A DNA stretch of 20,368 nucleotides from IMG/VR virus record IMGVR_UViG_3300031885_001374, positions 1 to 20,368 of that record, one strand, 5' to 3'. The position numbers were made by a program, and so were the translations under genes. The notes beneath the pieces were generated by a model. That model searched no databases, was not told where the DNA came from, and worked only from the letters and a program-made list of their open reading frames with translations. Positions 2,987-19,040 of the stretch are shown in pieces. Each line of letters starts with the position of its first letter. Position 1 is the stretch's first letter. Source of the stretch: a virus.

Positions 2987-3224
2987 CGGGTCTCCAGGTC
3001 CAGTGCCGCCGAGGTTCATAGAGGCAGAGAATGTGCGCGGTGAAAGCATCTCTGTGGGAGAGTGGTTCAAAGAGTTACCTAGAAATAAGAGCGAAGACTG
3101 GTTCCTAGTCCTGGAGGTCCGGGTTGAGGACGTTCTGGAGGATAAAAAGCGCTCGAAGACATTTTCTGGTCTCAAAAGCGCATTTACGGTTGGGATGATG
3201 TTGCCGGGAGGGGAGGATGAATGA
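2964..3224 (+). CDS. Hypothetical protein, 86 aa
   Basis: ATG 2964 is chosen because AGGAGGGG at 2951-2958 lies 5 nt upstream; the frame is open further back but only as the shadow of the previous gene. The product starts MKVFLRFDGSPGPVPPRFIE and contains an acidic/aromatic middle (SEDWFLVLEVRVEDV). No domain recognised. It overlaps the start of the methyltransferase remnant by 4 nt (ATGA 3221-3224), so it was originally coupled to it. Confidence 0.5.
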   Translation: MKVFLRFDGSPGPVPPRFIEAENVRGESISVGEWFKELPRNKSEDWFLVLEVRVEDVLEDKKRSKTFSGLKSAFTVGMMLPGGEDE

Positions 3225-4071
3225 AGTTTGGAAGTCTTTTCGCTGGCATCGGTGGTCTAGACTTGGGCTTGGAACGTGTGGGTATGAAATGTATCTGGCA
3301 AGTGGAGGTTGATGATTACTGCTCCCGAGTCCTCGCCCGGCACTTCCCCGATGTTGCCCGGTTTCGAGACGTGCGAGACTGCCACGGAGCCGGAGCGTGT
3401 CCTGTGGCCGACACCGAGGGCGAATCTGGTAACTGGCGCGACGTTGGAAGCCGCATCTTCGCGCTTGGATCACCACAACCTGGAGGACTATGCGGTTGTT
3501 GCAGCCGGCATCACTGGACAGTTGAACCCGACGTGGGTAGCTACCCTGATGGGATTTTCACCCGATTGGACGGAGGTGGACTAGATGCCGATGCATCGCA
3601 GGCAGGAGCCGATTCAGTTTTGCAACTTCTGCGGGAAGTCCTTGGAACGCAAGATGTTCAATGGGCGCCTAGAGGACTTCGGAGACGATACTGCGACCGT
3701 TGGTGCATGGGGCAAGCATTTGTCAAAGACACGTCCTTGAAGTCGGCATTGTTGAAGTGGGTGAAACCGTACCGTGGGACGAGTTGCGAATTGTGTGGGG
3801 CTATGAGGAACGTACACGTTCACCACATCGACGGGAACTTGCTCAACGACTCTGCCAGCAATATCCAAACCTTATGCGGCAGTTGTCATATTACCCACCA
3901 CCACCGTGTCCGGCGTGCTGGATTGACGGTTCCTGGGAGAGCGGTTTGCCCCGTGTAGCCACGGGCGTTCCCGCTAGGGTGGACAGACTTAGGGCACTCG
4001 GAAACGCCGTCGTCCCTCAAGTTGCAGAGTACGTTGGACGACTGATTATGGCGCAAGAGGTGCTGCTATGA
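3221..4071 (+). pseudogene. Broken DNA (cytosine-5) methyltransferase interrupted by HNH gene
   Basis: Three stretches in three frames look like pieces of one C5-cytosine methyltransferase. The first, from ATG 3221 to about 3385, gives MKFGSLFAGIGGLDLGLERV, the SAM-binding motif I, then WQVEVDDYCSRVLARHFPDV and RFRDVRD. The second, in another frame and ending at TAG 3582-3584, gives LWPTPRANLV and LNPTWVATLMGFSPDW, typical of the C-terminal third of phage enzymes. The third, about 3905-4071, gives WIDGSWESGLPRVATGVPA and RLRALGNAVVPQVAEYVG, the conserved end. The catalytic PCQ loop and the ENV motif are absent, so most of the centre has been deleted. An HNH gene separates pieces two and three. 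The enzyme should be inactive. Assembly error is the main alternative. Confidence 0.75.
3585..3958 (+). pseudogene. Frameshifted HNH homing-type endonuclease
   Basis: ATG 3585 directly follows the stop of the methyltransferase middle piece and has GGAGGTG at 3572-3578 upstream. The first frame gives QFCNFCGKSLERKMFNGRLE, then runs to a stop soon after; the second frame resumes at about 3680 with RRRYCDRWCMGQAFVKD, then CELCGAMRNVHVHHIDGN and NIQTLCGSCHITHHH to TAG 3956-3958. These are the zinc knuckles and HNH catalytic core (HHIDGN...N...CxxCHxxxH) of free-standing phage HNH nucleases. The shift is equivalent to loss of 1 (or 10, 13...) bases between GRLEDFG and RRRYCDR. It is likely inactive as a single polypeptide unless the shift is a sequencing error or is recoded. 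Confidence 0.75.
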
Positions 4072-5548: not shown

Positions 5549-7075
5549 ATGGCAACCTCTAGCAGGGGCGAGGAGTGGCAGCTAGAAAAGGCTGAGCAGG
5601 AGCTTCAGCGCAGGCTCGCGCTGCGTGAGTTCTCCCGCTTCCTGCCTCACTGGCGATTCATAGACAGAGAGACAGGCGAGGTGAGGAATTTCTCTGCCGA
5701 CCAGCTTCGCCACTGGCCTGGACAGCTCAGGCTAGCTGCCGCCATGGAAGAGCATACTCACATCATAGCCTTGAAGGCAGGGAAGCTAGGCTTCACAGAA
5801 CTTGAATGTGCTTATGATGCCTTTCGCGCTCTAGGCGTGCCTAACGCCAGGGTACATATTTTCAGCCGTGTGGGCACTGCGGCGGAGGAGAACCTGGAGA
5901 AAGTGAGGTTCGGCCTGAAGCACCTGCCTGAGTGGATGAGGCCACGTATCCTGGCAGGCGAGGCAGGCGGGGACACTATTTCCAGCATCAAGCTCAGCAT
6001 GGGGCCTGATGACATCCGCAGTATCCTATCCTACACGGCGGCACCAGATTCCTCAATTGAAAGCACCGCCATTCATGTGCATGTTGACGAGCTTGCCATG
6101 ATGGCCTTCCCAGAGAAGACTTGGCAGGCCATTTCTTCTACTGTTGCTCCTGAAGGAACCTGCCATGTCGTCAGCCGTGGCGCAGGAGATGACAACTACC
6201 TCGCTGTACTCTGGGAAGCTGCCTGCCAAGGAAGTTCAAGGTACTTTCCTGTGTTCGCCAACTGGCGGGAGAGACCAGGCAGGGACGAGGTATGGATGGA
6301 GGAGAAGTCAGGGGAAATGTCGCTTCAAGGCTTGAAGTTCTTCGCTCCTGAGACGGCGGAGGACGCGTTGAGTGCTGAGGATGTGCTGCCTTTCCTGCCG
6401 ATAGAAATCTGGAAGGCTTGCAAGGAGGAGCTCCCCTCCTTTGAGCCAGCCGTCTATGGCGGCCATGGTGGTGAGCCTGTGGTGATAGCGGTAGACGCAG
6501 CCGTGAGCGGAGACTGCTTCGCTGTAGTAGCGGTCACTAGGCATCCTGTGCGCCACCTTGACCCAGCAGTGCGGGCAGTTAGGATATGGTCGCCACCAGG
6601 AAATGGTGGCAAGATAGATTACACAGAGCCTGAGAGTTTCATCAGGGCGTTGGTGGAAGGCGGCTGTGCGGCTGGCCATCACCAGGATCCTCGCTTCAGG
6701 AGGGAGGACTGTCCTGCTTGTCTAGGCAGTGTGCTGGTGAAGGGCTACAATGTGGTGGAAATAACCTACGACCCCTTCCAACTAGAAGACATGATGCAGC
6801 GCATCAATAGAGAACTAGGTGTGTGGTGTGTGCCCTTTGACCAGGGAGGGCAACGACTCAAGTCAGACAGAATGCTGTATGATCTTATCGTCCAGCGCAG
6901 GCTGGCTCACTCAGGAGCAGAGGTTCTGGAGGAGCACATGAAGAATGCTGCTGCCAAGCTCCAGAAGGGTGAGGACAGCAAGATGCGTATTATCAAGCGA
7001 GCACAGAACAAGAAGGTAGATGCCGTTGTGGCCATGAGTATGGGGGTCTACGAGTGCTTGAGGCTGACGCTTTAG
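5549..7075 (+). CDS. terL: Terminase large subunit (ATPase/nuclease)
   Basis: Start ATG 5549 with GAGGAGG just upstream; 508 residues, normal for TerL. The protein drives DNA into the procapsid and cuts the concatemer. A deviant Walker A is visible at about 76-84 (KAGKLGFTE) and Walker B at about 176-182 (HVHVDEL, D180/E181). The RNase H-like nuclease domain has its acidic residues in VVIAVDAAVSG (D316), VEITYDPFQLEDM (D408) and KKVDAVVAMSMGV (D491). Between the first two acids a Cys/His cluster (C373, H377/H378, C388, C391) could bind zinc. The context (small terminase upstream, portal downstream) agrees. Confidence 0.92.
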   Translation: MATSSRGEEWQLEKAEQELQRRLALREFSRFLPHWRFIDRETGEVRNFSADQLRHWPGQLRLAAAMEEHTHIIALKAGKLGFTELECAYDAFRALGVPNARVHIFSRVGTAAEENLEKVRFGLKHLPEWMRPRILAGEAGGDTISSIKLSMGPDDIRSILSYTAAPDSSIESTAIHVHVDELAMMAFPEKTWQAISSTVAPEGTCHVVSRGAGDDNYLAVLWEAACQGSSRYFPVFANWRERPGRDEVWMEEKSGEMSLQGLKFFAPETAEDALSAEDVLPFLPIEIWKACKEELPSFEPAVYGGHGGEPVVIAVDAAVSGDCFAVVAVTRHPVRHLDPAVRAVRIWSPPGNGGKIDYTEPESFIRALVEGGCAAGHHQDPRFRREDCPACLGSVLVKGYNVVEITYDPFQLEDMMQRINRELGVWCVPFDQGGQRLKSDRMLYDLIVQRRLAHSGAEVLEEHMKNAAAKLQKGEDSKMRIIKRAQNKKVDAVVAMSMGVYECLRLTL

Positions 7076-7613: not shown

Positions 7614-8042
7614 ATGAGTCCAGGAGAGAATAAGGCAACTCTGAACTTCCCAGGTGGCAACGAGGTTGTGCAGTCTTATGTGGATGACCTGTTGAAAGAG
7701 AAGGTAGGAGAGAAGCACGACACGCCGAAGTCTCCTCACAAGGCACATATGCATGGTGGCGGAGGCGAGAGCATAGGCTATACGGTCGTCAGTACAGACA
7801 AGACGATGGGCGGATTCACAACTAAGATCAAACTCAAGGACGGTACACCTGTCAAGTATAGCGAGATCAAGAGCGGGATGACTCATCTAGCATCTATCAG
7901 AAAAGGGCACTTCTTGACTGTGGGATCTGAGAAAGAGCGATTCTTCAGCGAAGAGTCAGCTGGGAAGACTCGCTTTCATGAAGCTCTCAAGAAGTTGGGA
8001 GTGAATGAGATCGTGAGCCCAGCAGGAGTTGAGAAGATATGA
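7614..8042 (+). CDS. Hypothetical protein between terminase and portal, 142 aa
   Basis: ATG 7614 follows the previous TGA by one base; GAGGG (7604-7608) is a modest ribosome site. The N-terminus is charged; a Gly/His patch (HKAHMHGGGGES, about 43-54) leads into a likely beta-rich domain (IGYTVVSTDK, then GGFTTKIKLKDGTPVKYSEI) and a helical end (ESAGKTRFHEALKKLGVNEI). I recognise no family. The gene couples to the portal gene by ATGA overlap (8039-8042). The flexible patch before a compact domain suggests an added domain or small virion cargo, without direct evidence. Confidence 0.55.
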   Translation: MSPGENKATLNFPGGNEVVQSYVDDLLKEKVGEKHDTPKSPHKAHMHGGGGESIGYTVVSTDKTMGGFTTKIKLKDGTPVKYSEIKSGMTHLASIRKGHFLTVGSEKERFFSEESAGKTRFHEALKKLGVNEIVSPAGVEKI

Positions 8043-9523
8043 TTATTGATGAAGATGGAGAGAAGCAAGTAAGTTCGCAGGCACTGTCCCGCTCTGTCAT
8101 AGAGACTATGCCTGTGCCAGCGGCAGGGGCTGCGCCTATCGGCACTATAGAGTCCTCCCTGCTCTACTTCGTAGCACGTGTAGCGGAGGAGATATCTCCT
8201 TGGGGTCTGTCGCCTACCATGCGAGATTGCCAGTTGCGGGCCTTCTGGCCTAATGAGTCCTATTTCTGCTCCGCACTCGGCACAGTGACGGCTCGCAACT
8301 CCGCCTTCTCCTGGACGACAGAAGGGCCCCCTCGTACCAGCAAAGCTATGCAGGAAGTGCTGTATAACGCCAACAAGGGAGAAGGTTGGCAAGACCTGAT
8401 GGCAAAGACCTCTGTAGACCTTTACACTCAGGACAAAGGCGCATTTTGGGAGGTTGTGAGGGGAACAGACTCGCCAGATGGGGTGCTGATTGGCCTCAAT
8501 ACCTTGGACGCATCACATTGTGAGCACACAGGCAACCCTAAATATCCGGTCATCTACCGAGACCGTCTGGAGCGCTTCCACAGGCTTGCCTGGTATCAGG
8601 TAGTTACACTGGCGGAAATGGCGATGCCTCTGGAGGACAGGCCAGGTCTGCAGATGTGCGCACTCAGCCGAATGCTGCGAGCAGCACAGATCATTCGCAA
8701 CATCATAATTTACAAGGAAGAGAAGACAGGCGGGCGCTTCAATCGTGCCATCCACATTACCAAGGGAGTTACTAGAGCACAGATGGACGATGCTATGGCT
8801 AAGGCTTCCGCCAGAGCGGATGCGCAAGGTGCGCTCCGCTACGTTCAGCCTCTCATTGTGCCAGCCGTAGATCCCAAGGCAGACATAGACATCAAGACCT
8901 TGGAGCTAGCAGGTATGCCAGATGGCTACGATGAGAAGCAGACAATGGAACTTTACATCACCATCATTGCTATGGCCTTTCTCTCCGATTATCAGGACTT
9001 CGCTCCTATGCCAGGCGGAAACATCGGTACCAGTATGCAGAGCAACATTCTGCACCTGAAGACCAAAGGGAAGGGGCCAGCGCTGTTCCGCAAGCTCATA
9101 ACGCATGCTCTGAACTTCAAGGTGCTGCCAAAGGCCGTCACGTTCACATTCGAGGAGCAGGACATTCAGGCCGATCAGGATCAGGCCAACGTGCGCAAGA
9201 CGCGGGCTGAAACACGGGCCTTGCAGGTGACCAGCGGAGAGCTTACGGCGGAGGCTGCTCGGCAGATAGCGCTGGACGCGGGCGACATGCCTCAGGAGGT
9301 CTTTGACAAGCTCGGCGGCGTAGACGTGACACCACACATCACGGCACCAGATGAGGCTTTTCCCAAGGAACCTGAGGAAGGTGCTAGAATAGCTCCATAT
9401 CCTGCTCCACCAGTTGCTCCGCCTAAGCCAGTAACTCCTGTGGCTGCTGCCAAGGGCTATGACATAGTAACACTAGACGAGTCCTTCTGGGAGAAGGTAC
9501 TGTCTGAATACTACGAGGTGTAG
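8039..9523 (+). CDS. Portal protein
   Basis: 494 residues from ATG 8039, overlapping the previous stop. The portal forms the dodecameric ring at the capsid vertex through which DNA is packaged and to which the tail attaches. The pattern LNTLDASHCEHTGNPKYPVI ... HRLAWYQVVTLAEMAMPL ... GLQMCALSRMLRAAQIIRNI ... YKEEKTGGRFNRAIHI matches phage portal proteins of this kind as I know them, followed by the helical clip/wing part and a Pro-rich tail (APYPAPPVAPPKPVTP). Length and position between the large terminase and the MuF protein fit. The stop TAG abuts the next ATG. Confidence 0.82.
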   Translation: MIIDEDGEKQVSSQALSRSVIETMPVPAAGAAPIGTIESSLLYFVARVAEEISPWGLSPTMRDCQLRAFWPNESYFCSALGTVTARNSAFSWTTEGPPRTSKAMQEVLYNANKGEGWQDLMAKTSVDLYTQDKGAFWEVVRGTDSPDGVLIGLNTLDASHCEHTGNPKYPVIYRDRLERFHRLAWYQVVTLAEMAMPLEDRPGLQMCALSRMLRAAQIIRNIIIYKEEKTGGRFNRAIHITKGVTRAQMDDAMAKASARADAQGALRYVQPLIVPAVDPKADIDIKTLELAGMPDGYDEKQTMELYITIIAMAFLSDYQDFAPMPGGNIGTSMQSNILHLKTKGKGPALFRKLITHALNFKVLPKAVTFTFEEQDIQADQDQANVRKTRAETRALQVTSGELTAEAARQIALDAGDMPQEVFDKLGGVDVTPHITAPDEAFPKEPEEGARIAPYPAPPVAPPKPVTPVAAAKGYDIVTLDESFWEKVLSEYYEV

Positions 9524-15226: not shown

Positions 15227-15670
15227 ATGGATAGAGACAAGGATCCTAATGCCACTCAGGAGCGCTACGAGGGCGACACGCAGGAGCGATCATGGGACGC
15301 TAAGGTCAACGCGGCCTTCGAGTTGTTCTTGCTTAATGCCAAGCGTACCTACGACGAGTACCAGGAAGTATCCCTGGAGAGCATCAAGCGCAACGGTCTG
15401 CTGTTCGACAAGATCCTCACTGACGCCCAGCAGTACGACAACCAGCGTGAGGTCATCGCCAACCAGGCGCTGCAGAACGCGGTTACTACCTCGGACATGG
15501 TTGCCAAGCAGACCATTCGCCACGGAGACTTCGCAGTGGATCAGCAGTGGAACCTGGAGCCGCACGAGGCTGCTGCAGAGGCTGAGGTGTTGCCAAAGTT
15601 CTACCTGGACGCGATCAAGGCCATTGTCATCGACGCGCTAGTCGAGGCGGGAGTTGGCAAGAAGTCGTAA
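15227..15670 (+). CDS. Capsid-adjacent conserved phage protein, 147 aa
   Basis: ATG 15227 has GGAGGGAGGTG about 7 nt upstream, another very strong site; the frame is open back to 15146 but only through the intergenic hairpin. The protein is mostly helical and charged: AKVNAAFELFLLNAKRTYDE, SIKRNGLLFDKILTDAQQYD, NQALQNAVTTSDMVAKQTIR, then WNLEPHEAAAEAEVLPKFYL. Similar helical proteins follow major capsid genes in related phages as I recall, with no established function; decoration, connector or internal virion protein are possible. The strong ribosome site suggests high expression. Confidence 0.55.
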   Translation: MDRDKDPNATQERYEGDTQERSWDAKVNAAFELFLLNAKRTYDEYQEVSLESIKRNGLLFDKILTDAQQYDNQREVIANQALQNAVTTSDMVAKQTIRHGDFAVDQQWNLEPHEAAAEAEVLPKFYLDAIKAIVIDALVEAGVGKKS

Positions 15671-15720: not shown

Positions 15721-16653
15721 ATGCGCAAAGTTCTCTGTACTGGCGGGGCTGGCTTCCTTGGTCGTGGCATCCTGCGGCAGATCTCGCAAGGAAAGTTGGA
15801 CTGGGATGTAACAGTCTACTCCACTGACGAGGAGAAGCAGGTCAAGTGCCACCAGCGCTACCCAAACGCTCGCTACGTTCTAGGGGATGTGAGAGACCTG
15901 GAGCGTTTGCGTACTGTGATGGCGGGGCATGAGTGGGTAGTACATGCCGCTGCTGTAAAATATATCCCGGAAGCTGAGATGAATCCGTCAGAGTGCATTG
16001 CCGTCAACATCGACGGAGCACGCAGCGTCATGGCAGCAGCTAGAGCCTGCGGTGTGGAACGAGTCGTAGGCATCTCCACCGACAAGGCTGTGATGCCTGT
16101 GAACGTCTACGGCATGACTAAGGCTGTGATGGAGCGACTGTTCCAGGAAGAGCATCAGCATGCACAGATTCCAGCCTTCACCTGCGTGCGCTATGGTAAC
16201 GTCGTAGGCAGCACAGGATCTGTCATACCGCTGTTCCGCCATCAGTGGCAACAGGAGCATAAGGTCAGAATCACTGACCCGAATATGACTCGCTTCTGGA
16301 TGGGCGTGGATGAAGCGATAGGCGTCATCCAGATAGCGCTAGAGAAAGTTCATTCTGGCAGCATAGTGATCCCGCCTGTACGGGCCGCTACCATTCTGGA
16401 CACGGCCAAGGCTGCTACCTGCGAGGATGTAGAGGTGGAAGTGATAGGAACTCGCCCAGGTGAGAAGAAGCACGAGCTGATACTCCATCATGAAGAGTCT
16501 GTTCGTGCCTTCAAGCAGAAGGGGTACATCGAACTCCTACCGCCAGGAACGCCAGCAGTCAAGGAGGCTTTCACCATCGCCAGCCACACTCCGCAATATT
16601 TTATAAGCATCGAGGAGCTGCGTTCTCTTATTCAGGACTCAGAAAATGTCTGA
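15721..16653 (+). CDS. UDP-sugar 4,6-dehydratase (PseB/CapD/FlaA1-type SDR)
   Basis: ATG 15721 after GAGGAG (15710-15715). 310 residues of an extended short-chain dehydrogenase: TGGAGFLG (7-14) for NAD(P), GDVRDLERL, VVHAAAVKYIPEAEMNP, STDKAVMPVNVYGMTK (119-134; D121, K122, Y130, K134 as catalytic set), VRYGNVVGSTGSVIPLF, MTRFWM and RPGEKKHELI. This is the Polysacc_synt_2 family (PF02719), which converts UDP-GlcNAc to a 4-keto-6-deoxy sugar; the DK pair in place of the usual DE resembles FlaA1/PseB. It opens a cassette of sugar genes. Its final 20 codons have a second, diverged version at 16783-16845, evidence of an insertion at its 3' end. Confidence 0.85.
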   Translation: MRKVLCTGGAGFLGRGILRQISQGKLDWDVTVYSTDEEKQVKCHQRYPNARYVLGDVRDLERLRTVMAGHEWVVHAAAVKYIPEAEMNPSECIAVNIDGARSVMAAARACGVERVVGISTDKAVMPVNVYGMTKAVMERLFQEEHQHAQIPAFTCVRYGNVVGSTGSVIPLFRHQWQQEHKVRITDPNMTRFWMGVDEAIGVIQIALEKVHSGSIVIPPVRAATILDTAKAATCEDVEVEVIGTRPGEKKHELILHHEESVRAFKQKGYIELLPPGTPAVKEAFTIASHTPQYFISIEELRSLIQDSENV

Positions 16654-16798
16654 ATCTGCTGAGACTAGACGAAAGCGGTTAAGAAAACAGGCTTTGATGG
16701 CATGGGCTAGGCCAGGTTTTAGGGAACGTATGTCAGAGTCTCATAAAGGAAAGACTTTGCCAGAGGAACAAAATTGTCGTCACCTCAGTATTCCATAG
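16646..16798 (+). CDS. NUMOD3-like homing endonuclease fragment, 50 aa
   Basis: ATG 16646 overlaps the dehydratase stop by 8 nt and reads to TAG 16796-16798. The sequence is basic: KRLRKQALMAWARPGFRERM, then SESHKGKTLPEEQ. RxRMSExxKGKxLxxEQ resembles the NUMOD3 DNA-binding module of HNH and GIY-YIG homing endonucleases (PF07460). No nuclease domain is present, so this is a remnant or a minimal DNA-binding piece. The final residues (NCRHLSIP) run into the duplicated dehydratase end in another frame. No clear ribosome site; expression would depend on coupling. Confidence 0.5.
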   Translation: MSESAETRRKRLRKQALMAWARPGFRERMSESHKGKTLPEEQNCRHLSIP

Positions 16799-16845
16799 GT
16801 ATCGAGGAGCTAAGAGCGCTTATAGACGATGCGGAGGATGTGTAA
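16783..16845 (+). pseudogene. Displaced original 3' end of dehydratase gene
   Basis: Twenty codons plus TAA, reading PQYSIGIEELRALIDDAEDV, in a frame with no start of its own. Its stop overlaps the next ATG as TAATG, and GGAGG at 16833-16837 within it is the ribosome site for the next gene. It therefore probably is the ancestral gene end, retained because it carries that site. Confidence 0.65.
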
Positions 16846-17627
16846 TGCGGATATGGGTCACAGGAGCGAAGGGTCTTCTGGGTAGATACGTATGCGAGGC
16901 AGTCGAAGAGCGCGGCCATAATCTGTTCGCCACCTCTCACTGGGACTGTCCTATTGAAGATCTCGGCATCGTTCATAGGATATCCAAGGACAAGAATCTA
17001 GACGCTATTATCAACTGCGCTGGAAAAACAACGCCGACTCCTGCCATCGAAATGCTGCTCGCCAACTCTCTCGGCCCACACGTTCTCGCCACTCTGAAGA
17101 TACGTATGGTGCACATGAGCACCGACTGCGTGTTCTCTGGCAAGAGCGGCCAGAATCGCTCCAAGGACAATCCAGATCCCGTAGGCATCTATGGCCGCTC
17201 CAAGCTAGCTGGCGAAGTGGACGCTACACACGTGCTCAACGTGAGAGGCTCCTTCATCTCCAAGGAGGGGGGCTTCCTGTTCTGGCTACTGAACGCTACT
17301 GGCAAGGTAGAGGCCTGGAAGAACGCTGACTGGAACGGGACGACAGCAGCAATCATGGCTGACAAGTTAGTGGAGTTGGCAGAAGGCGAGAAGGTAGGGG
17401 TTGTCCATGCTGCCTCTCCAGAGATGGTATCCAAGGCATGGCTAGTCCATCTGTTTGCCGGGCGACTTGGCCTGCCAGTAGAAGTCATAGATACTGACAT
17501 TCCCAGCATCGGCCTAGCGCTCACGCCTGACGTAATGCTTCCTCCTACCGTGCAGGTAATGGAGGACTATGCTAAGGAAATGGAGGACTATGCTAAGGAG
17601 TTGCAGGAATGTCTGACCTTCGCGTGA
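16845..17627 (+). CDS. RmlD-like nucleotide-sugar reductase
   Basis: ATG 16845 (TAATG overlap), GGAGG 7 nt upstream. 260 residues: VTGAKGLLGRYV (5-16) nucleotide-binding loop, INCAGKT, MSTDCVFSG (91-99) and YGRSKLAGE (116-124; YxxxK). These are hallmarks of the dTDP-4-dehydrorhamnose reductase / RmlD_sub_bind group (PF04321), which reduces the 4-keto group made by a 4,6-dehydratase. It is somewhat shorter than typical RmlD. The C-terminus has a fresh 7-aa duplication (MEDYAKE twice). Paired with the upstream dehydratase it would yield a 6-deoxy sugar nucleotide; the exact sugar is not predictable. Confidence 0.8.
   Translation: MRIWVTGAKGLLGRYVCEAVEERGHNLFATSHWDCPIEDLGIVHRISKDKNLDAIINCAGKTTPTPAIEMLLANSLGPHVLATLKIRMVHMSTDCVFSGKSGQNRSKDNPDPVGIYGRSKLAGEVDATHVLNVRGSFISKEGGFLFWLLNATGKVEAWKNADWNGTTAAIMADKLVELAEGEKVGVVHAASPEMVSKAWLVHLFAGRLGLPVEVIDTDIPSIGLALTPDVMLPPTVQVMEDYAKEMEDYAKELQECLTFA
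17559..17600 (+). repeat. 21-bp tandem duplication
   Basis: Units 17559-17579 and 17580-17600 (ATGGAGGACTATGCTAAGGA + A or G) differ only in the last base. The frame is kept, adding MEDYAKE near the reductase C-terminus; the second unit ends in the AAGGAG that serves the next gene. Confidence 0.92.
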
Positions 17628-18277
17628 CAGTAGCCATCCCAGTAGGGCCGCGTCCTACTGACCAGCAATGGTTGGAGGAATGCCTGGAGAGTGTCAGACA
17701 ACAGACAATGCCACCTGATGAGATTCTCCTTGTAGATGATATGGCGAATCTTCCTCCTCACGATGGGTGCCGTATCTGGCGAGCACCGTGGCGGGTTGGT
17801 GTGGCATGTGCTTTCAATTTCTGCGTAGCGCTAGCCAAGAATGAACTCGTCTTCATGCTTAGCGATGATGATATACTCTACCCTACCTGCCTAGAGCGTT
17901 GCTTAGCGACCTACGAGCGGGTAGGGAGGATAGATGGATTCTATTGGGCGGGGGTACGGTACAGCGATGATCGAGAGGATCAGTTCTTTCCTTTCAACGG
18001 GGCAATGACGACGAAAGGCTTTTGGCGCATGACGGGGGGTTTTCCACCCGAATCTGGCTCGGGTGCGCCTGATGCTGCCTTTCTCTCCATTCTAATGGTC
18101 AATGGGATGTTTGATCGCGTCCAGTGTATCGATACTAAGGAACCACAGTACTGGTATCGTGTCCACGAGAATACTGACACAGGAGCGAGAGGTCCTTGGC
18201 AGGGAGTAATCCTAGAGACGCGCCACTTGCTCACTCACTCCTGGAAGCCGCCAGAGTGGGGCAGGTATGATACTTGA
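17609..18277 (+). CDS. Family 2 glycosyltransferase, 222 aa
   Basis: ATG 17609 overlaps the reductase by 19 nt, with AAGGAG 8 nt upstream. GT-A fold signs: VTVAIPVGPR at the N-terminus, LEECLESVRQQTMPPDEILL, VDDM (42-45), RVGVACAFNFCVALAKNELV and the metal/nucleotide-binding LSDDDIL (85-90). Then FFPFNGAMTTKGFWRMTGGF and a WYRVHENTD acceptor region. It would transfer an activated sugar to an acceptor in the cytoplasm; donor and acceptor are unknown. It is short for the family but holds the full catalytic half. It is a paralog of the next gene. Confidence 0.82.
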   Translation: MSDLRVTVAIPVGPRPTDQQWLEECLESVRQQTMPPDEILLVDDMANLPPHDGCRIWRAPWRVGVACAFNFCVALAKNELVFMLSDDDILYPTCLERCLATYERVGRIDGFYWAGVRYSDDREDQFFPFNGAMTTKGFWRMTGGFPPESGSGAPDAAFLSILMVNGMFDRVQCIDTKEPQYWYRVHENTDTGARGPWQGVILETRHLLTHSWKPPEWGRYDT

Positions 18278-19040
18278 TACCAGGGTATCGGTCGTCATCC
18301 CAGTGGGACCAGAGAAATATCACCAGAAATATCTGGAAGAGTGCGTAGCCAGCGTGCGAGCGCAAACTCATCCAGCAAATGAGATCTTGCTCATAGATGA
18401 CATGACGGATCTCACCACAATAACAGATACAACAACAATGCAGATGGGCAATAATTGGCATGTTGGAGTAGAAACTGCTATAAATGGCTTTCTGGAGGGT
18501 TGCAATATCTGGAGATCTCCTTGGCGGTTAGGGGTAGCTTCTGCTATCAACTGTGGCGTGTCTTTAGCTGTTAATGATCTCGTATATCTCCTCTGTGCTG
18601 ATGATTGGCTAGAGCCAGAATGCTTGGCAGCCTGTGTAGAGGAGTATGAGCGCCGAAAGGATCTGCTCGGCTACTACCATGTGACCGTTCGATTTGCAAT
18701 TGAGGCAGGTCATCAACACCCCTTCCCCTTGCCAGACCCGCCTATACAGGATCTGCCCTGCGGCTCGGCGATGGTTACTAAGCAGTTGTGGAGATGTACG
18801 GGGGGGTTTCCGCTAGAGTCAGGATTTTCGCCTGACGCCGTATTCATCTCAATCCTACTAGGTAATCCAGGCAATGGTTCTCTTCGACCTGTAAAGCAAG
18901 GAGTGCCCCTATGCAACCTCCGCCTTCACGCCGAACAGGACTCGGCTAGTCGTAGCCCTTGGGTGGGGGTAGTAGGCACTGTGCGCGACATGATGACCAG
19001 AGAATGGAAACAACCAACTTGGGGTAGGTTCGATGGTTGA
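18267..19040 (+). CDS. Family 2 glycosyltransferase paralog with insertion, 257 aa
   Basis: ATG 18267 overlaps the first glycosyltransferase by 11 nt. Same layout: VSVVIPVGP, LEECVASVRAQTHPANEILL, IDDM, RLGVASAINCGVSLAVNDLV, ADDW (111-114), then a GGFPLESGFSPDAVF block and a LRLHAEQDSASRSPWVGVV end. Relative to the paralog it has about 25 extra residues after IDDMTDL, including NNWHVGVETAINGF, which echoes the following PWRLGVASAINCGV, so a segment seems duplicated in place. The acidic motif is ADD rather than DDD. Whether it is active is uncertain. Confidence 0.78.
   Translation: MILDTRVSVVIPVGPEKYHQKYLEECVASVRAQTHPANEILLIDDMTDLTTITDTTTMQMGNNWHVGVETAINGFLEGCNIWRSPWRLGVASAINCGVSLAVNDLVYLLCADDWLEPECLAACVEEYERRKDLLGYYHVTVRFAIEAGHQHPFPLPDPPIQDLPCGSAMVTKQLWRCTGGFPLESGFSPDAVFISILLGNPGNGSLRPVKQGVPLCNLRLHAEQDSASRSPWVGVVGTVRDMMTREWKQPTWGRFDG

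Follow-up and report, generated by a model that had tools for sequence, protein, structure and literature searches.

In the window analysed here, a stretch of 20,368 nucleotides of the IMG/VR virus record IMGVR_UViG_3300031885_001374, a sugar dehydratase gene is followed by a second, diverged version of its own 3' end, and a short open reading frame resembling the NUMOD3 repeats of phage homing endonucleases lies between the two. We consider it probable that the dehydratase end is the scar of a homing-type recombination, in which a donor endonuclease made the break and the repair was one-sided. The direct part of this model consists of the insertion relative to the closest relative, the empty site in that relative, the native copy of the gene end and the similarity of the peptide; the donor, the cut site, the nuclease type and the one-sided repair form its inferred part.

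The dehydratase locus and its counterpart in the closest relative

The closest relative of the window is IMGVR_UViG_3300031952_003785 (hereafter L002), whose dehydratase is 86% identical in DNA and 94% in protein. The features of the locus in the window are the following.

15721-16653 (+): dehydratase gene (Polysacc_synt_2, UDP-GlcNAc 4,6-dehydratase-like; Pfam PF02719, E 5e-76), now apparently a hybrid of a native body and the copy 1 end
16591-16653 (+): copy 1, the end now used by the gene, PQYFISIEELRSLIQDSENV-TGA, and probably of foreign origin, judging by its mismatches to L002 and to copy 2
16646-16798 (+): open reading frame of 50 aa, a NUMOD3-like fragment (Pfam score, endonuclease alignments, shuffles)
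16654-16782 (+): inserted stretch of 129 bp that L002 lacks (flanking alignments gapless, net gain of 192 bp; composition)
16783-16845 (+): copy 2, the putative displaced native gene end, PQYSIGIEELRALIDDAEDV-TAA (11/63 mismatches to L002, which is the background rate)
16845-17627 (+): RmlD-like sugar nucleotide gene (Pfam PF04321, E 2e-22), found directly 3' of the dehydratase in L002

Copy 2 starts exactly 192 bp downstream of copy 1 and keeps the dehydratase frame. Its stop codon TAA overlaps the ATG of the RmlD-like gene at position 16845 (TAATG), and it contains a ribosome-site-like GGAGGA serving this start. The spacing, the overlap and the ribosome site had been described in a first-pass annotation of the window, which proved correct to the base. 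The ATG of the 50-aa open reading frame overlaps the dehydratase stop codon (ATGTCTGA), and its final few codons extend into copy 2. The GC content of the inserted stretch is 45%, and only 4% of windows of the same length are as low; a search for a promoter or a terminator found none. The dehydratase profile aligns to the closest solved structure, the UDP-GlcNAc C6 dehydratase 2gn4, up to position 307 of 314 and so reaches nearly its C-terminus; on this structural model, the C-terminal tail of the dehydratase belongs to the fold.

L002 has a single dehydratase end, SHTPQYFIGIEELRSLIDDAEDV-TAATG (IDDAEDV-TAATG), which leads directly into the RmlD gene (L002 6930-7691). The DNA of the window aligns to that of L002 without gaps over 15742-16631 and again over 16795-17578, and the offset between the two alignments shifts by exactly 192 bases. 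Given these gapless flanks and this offset, the window has an insertion when compared with L002. An insertion near the 3' end of the gene had been proposed in the first-pass annotation, which recommended a search for uninterrupted genes whose end matches 16783-16845; the dehydratase of L002 is such a gene. A precise loss in L002 is the less likely explanation, because the other loci of the dehydratase family that were examined also lack a second end. Upstream, the window has a 147-aa gene (15227-15667) with no family match between the capsid gene and the dehydratase; it is absent from L002, in which these two genes are approximately 130 bp apart. The capsid protein itself had no match in the bacterial and archaeal genomes searched.

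Both copies align codon by codon, stop codon included, to the single gene end of L002, and their resemblance is therefore beyond chance. In most of the 25 dehydratase loci of the family that were examined, the gene closes with a comparable short C-terminal motif, and the following gene starts close to the stop codon or overlaps it; neither a repeated gene end nor the C-terminal end IQDSENV was found among them. We also scanned 1464 open reading frames of the fetched loci for repeats of the gene end within 2.5 kb downstream. The scan returned 10 matches, the window dehydratase being one of them. Four scored higher, of which three look like whole tandem paralogues and the other is an adjacent pair of endonuclease genes. 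No second case of a diverged gene-end repeat was present in this set; the scan found only a younger, near-identical duplication in the locus L047, where a small zinc-finger-like open reading frame (7990-8160) lies between two nearly identical ~25-base copies of an overlap of gene end and gene start (GAGCTCGATGGAAC.AACCCCCCGGC). This is a gene-end duplication of far more recent date, around an inserted open reading frame. In another relative, L012, a 209-aa gene with no assigned function (5935-6564) lies between the dehydratase and RmlD genes, and because of this extra gene the junction may take up insertions repeatedly.

It could be argued that the window retains the remnant of two tandem dehydratases, of which the paralogue ending in copy 2 lost nearly its whole body, with a NUMOD3-like piece in between. 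The divergence of the copies would suit old paralogues, and tandem paralogues do occur in this operon, in which two adjacent glycosyltransferase family 2 genes (17609-19040) are approximately 41% identical. However, L002 has only one dehydratase, with a body matching the window gene and an end most similar to copy 2; adjacent duplicate dehydratases were absent from the loci inspected, no homologue examined carried the two ends as separate full genes, and the deletion would have had to stop almost exactly at the homologous codon. We therefore regard a tandem remnant as very unlikely. An assembly chimera of two strain variants in the metagenome is highly improbable as well: the two-ended structure is known from one metagenomic contig only, but the longest exact word common to the two copies is 11 nt, by itself too short to mislead an assembler, and the alignment to L002 is regular on both flanks.

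Divergence of the two gene ends

The background divergence between the window and L002 is approximately 14%, or about 8 differences per 20-codon window. Copy 1 has 15 mismatches to L002 over the 63 bases, against the 11 of copy 2, and the difference is concentrated in the last 24 bases, where copy 2 has 2 mismatches and copy 1 has 10; copy 1 differs from copy 2 at 10 of these 24 bases as well. Between the two copies there are 21 differences over the 63 positions, 20 of them in the first 60 (33%), a divergence reached by 0.6% of the background 20-codon windows between the two phages and by none within the dehydratase. Because copy 2 matches L002 at the background rate, and because the mutual divergence of the copies exceeds nearly all background windows, copy 2 is, on these comparisons, the displaced original end, as the first-pass annotation had proposed. 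Compared with L002 alone, copy 1 stands out only mildly (14/60, a value that 6% of windows attain), and its first 15 nt are identical to those of L002, whereas copy 2 differs at 4 of them. The exact crossover points cannot be placed, since these 15 nt favour copy 1 and since copy 1 lies only in the upper 6% relative to L002.

The copies have 14 of 20 residues in common, 8 codons differing synonymously and 6 non-synonymously. Because such a high divergence (20/60) is combined with this proportion of synonymous changes, the copies probably diverged as parts of working genes before being joined in one locus. The earlier view that the many synonymous differences argue against a recent tandem duplication was upheld, and a recent duplication was rejected, because the copies lie further apart than the two phages do. 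An older local tandem duplication followed by divergence, with a middle part derived from unrelated DNA, appears extremely unlikely. Tandem duplications of short sequences are frequent in this phage (2356-2439, 13169-13228 and 17554-17599), but these repeats are 96-100% identical, in contrast to the 33% difference between copies 1 and 2, which exceeds the divergence between the two phages; the copies have nonetheless kept the frame, the position of the stop codon and the 14 common residues. The repeat at 17554-17599 duplicates 21 bp close to the end of the RmlD-like gene, which thus encodes MEDYAKE twice; L002 has one copy. The other two are similar recent repeats.

The most likely source of copy 1 is a different but related phage. 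A donor phage with the copy 1 end was absent from IMG/VR, searched with the whole dehydratase, a family alignment and a C-terminal alignment, and from phage records, searched with the C-terminal 44 residues; the searches gave only orthologues with other ends. Thus, of the previous suggestion that a related phage supplied a replacement end, the part concerning a diverged and probably foreign copy 1 was borne out, and the donor was not found.

The peptide between the gene ends

The Pfam NUMOD3 profile (PF07460) matched the 50-aa peptide with 13.0 bits, under the curated gathering cut-off of 20.4. Peptide residues 9-45 align with homing endonucleases, and the segment FRERMSESHKGKTLPEEQ is 72% identical over 18 aa to the NUMOD3 repeat of a GIY-YIG/NUMOD3 protein (L005). 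In comparisons with four phage homing endonucleases, the score of the peptide was reached by 0, 1, 0 and 0 of 2000 shuffles, and four control proteins scored ordinarily against it. By these measures, the peptide resembles the NUMOD3 repeats of phage homing endonucleases beyond chance and does have endonuclease relatives. No catalytic nuclease domain was detected with Pfam between the two gene ends, where there are only 50 codons, and a Vsr/DUF559 catalytic domain is absent from the fragment. The first-pass annotation had called the peptide a homing-linked NUMOD3 remnant and recommended the profile search; the similarity holds, with a profile score below the cut-off and with no nuclease domain.

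When the 50-aa peptide served as the query for a full endonuclease, IMG/VR yielded only general GIY-YIG/NUMOD3 proteins, bacterial genomes yielded nothing, and plasmids gave no significant match. An intact endonuclease element, at the dehydratase site or any other, was not found in the IMG/VR, phage, bacterial and plasmid searches, and neither was an element with a full HNH or GIY-YIG gene at the same site, for which the first-pass annotation had recommended looking. A match to Pseudomonas phage KPP21 (E 7) was taken as chance because it lies on the strand opposite the annotated genes. The NUMOD3 profile had no match over the contigs of the relatives, the NUMOD3-like stretch of the nuclease described below being too weak for the model.

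This nuclease is encoded in L007, which belongs to the same phage group (60% identity in the capsid protein), by a gene located between the capsid gene and the dehydratase, directly upstream of the latter (L007 11482-12114). It is a 210-aa protein with a NUMOD3-like N-terminus and a C-terminal DUF559/Vsr domain; annotated Hef-like homing endonucleases are among its relatives in phages, and it is a good candidate homing endonuclease for biochemistry. In Mycobacterium phage Camster, a protein matching it sits between two methylase genes. In the peptide, the NUMOD3-like similarity begins within the first residues, unlike in the GIY-YIG enzymes compared, which begin with the nuclease domain, and as in the L007 nuclease, which begins with the repeats. 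For this reason, the fragment is most likely the start of a nuclease with the L007-type architecture (NUMOD3-like first, Vsr/Hef-like), its kinship to Hef/Vsr-like (EDxHD) enzymes being deduced solely from the N-terminal position of the repeat.

It is hardly credible that the 192 nt form a small in-frame intron or RNA element whose splicing restores the native end, even though their number is divisible by three and copy 2 shares the reading frame of the dehydratase. Such an element was rejected, as there was no Rfam match (E up to 5), hence no group I or group II catalytic RNA core, and the folding energy was ordinary (z -1.45); moreover, splicing is not needed, since copy 1 has its own stop codon in the conserved place.

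Elsewhere in the window, a cytosine-5 DNA methylase gene (3221-4071) appears to be broken, in the order N-terminal 54 residues, HNH-endonuclease-like stretch (residues 153-231 of the open reading frame 3221-3958) and C-terminus in another frame (open reading frame 3700-4071).

Proposed recombination and comparison with known systems

In the proposed mechanism, a related donor phage would have carried a homing endonuclease gene just 3' of its dehydratase stop codon (overlap ATGTCTGA), encoding an enzyme that has NUMOD3-like DNA-binding repeats first and is probably Hef/Vsr-like (EDxHD). The recipient dehydratase gene would then have suffered a double-strand break near codon PQY, and the two sides of the break would have been repaired differently. 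On the left, homology within the gene would have allowed the donor's version of the gene end, copy 1, to be copied in together with the first part of the endonuclease gene; on the right, homology-free joining would have linked them to the end that the recipient already had, copy 2. The outcome would be a complete but hybrid dehydratase frame, an endonuclease cut to 50 codons, and an original end persisting as probably untranslated DNA that bears the ribosome site of the next gene. Copy 2 would be retained because it holds the GGAGGA and the overlapping start of that gene. One-sided, illegitimate break repair with microhomology junctions is known from intron homing in phage T4 (PMC2988022).

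A less likely, though appreciable, alternative is that a mobile cassette consisting of a full endonuclease and a replacement gene end was inserted as a unit, most of the endonuclease being deleted later. The layout is that of Allomyces and Glomus mitochondria (PMC3630166), and an in-frame replacement end would leave the insertion harmless. However, an intact example was absent at this and the other sites searched, and unlike one-sided repair, the cassette requires a second event. The present data appear to fit both possibilities; one-sided repair is preferred because a single event suffices. The later decay to 50 aa assumed in the first-pass annotation is not demonstrated, truncation at the moment of insertion explaining the anatomy equally well.

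The most similar known structures are the gene hybrids formed by mobile open reading frames in fungal mitochondria, namely atp6 of Allomyces macrogynus and atp6, atp9, cox2 and nad3 of Glomus sp. (PMC3630166). As in these hybrids, a C-terminal end of foreign origin (probably so in the window) is fused in frame and followed by an endonuclease open reading frame and the displaced native end, the displaced end matches relatives better than the inserted one, and an uninterrupted relative with a single gene end exists (L002). The window differs in its phage setting and in its target, a sugar dehydratase gene; its endonuclease is only a 50-codon remnant, of a family that is different or not assignable, and no donor lineage was matched in IMG/VR or phage records. 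It is not a full member of the class, because neither a complete endonuclease nor a donor was found in the searches described above.

The free-standing homing endonucleases of phages that act with co-conversion, such as T4 Seg/Mob and Hef (PMC2988022), likewise have NUMOD3-like DNA-binding repeats, lie beside conserved genes and cause flanking sequence to be replaced by that of the donor; ordinary homing, however, replaces the recipient allele and leaves no displaced copy, whereas the window keeps the original end. Illegitimate one-sided repair in T4 (PMC2988022) shares the homologous join on one side and the non-homologous join on the other, but was seen in laboratory crosses with limited homology, the present case being inferred from natural sequence. 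In a limited search of the open-access literature, we found no phage example of the layout gene end, endonuclease, displaced end. Friedrich and co-workers (2007, listed in PMC10448857) reportedly described the nrdA gene of phage Aeh1, split by a homing endonuclease. An endonuclease gene lies there too in a phage gene whose function is kept; nrdA is in two pieces, unlike the window dehydratase, whose frame is completed by the replacement end.

The structure suggests that hybrid phage genes can be assembled by homing endonucleases, the protein end of a relative being swapped in and the old end displaced, as in fungal mitochondria. Trees of phage genes formed in this way can combine two different histories. 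The order gene end, NUMOD-like fragment, second gene end offers a footprint for the systematic screening of phage genomes. We consider it possible, but doubtful, that phages harbour homing cassettes carrying a replacement 3' end of the target gene, whose invasion would leave the target as a functional hybrid; the window would then hold a degenerate member, and intact ones would reside in uncultured phages. As far as this comparison goes, the layout is known from fungal mitochondria, and its occurrence in a phage would be what is new.
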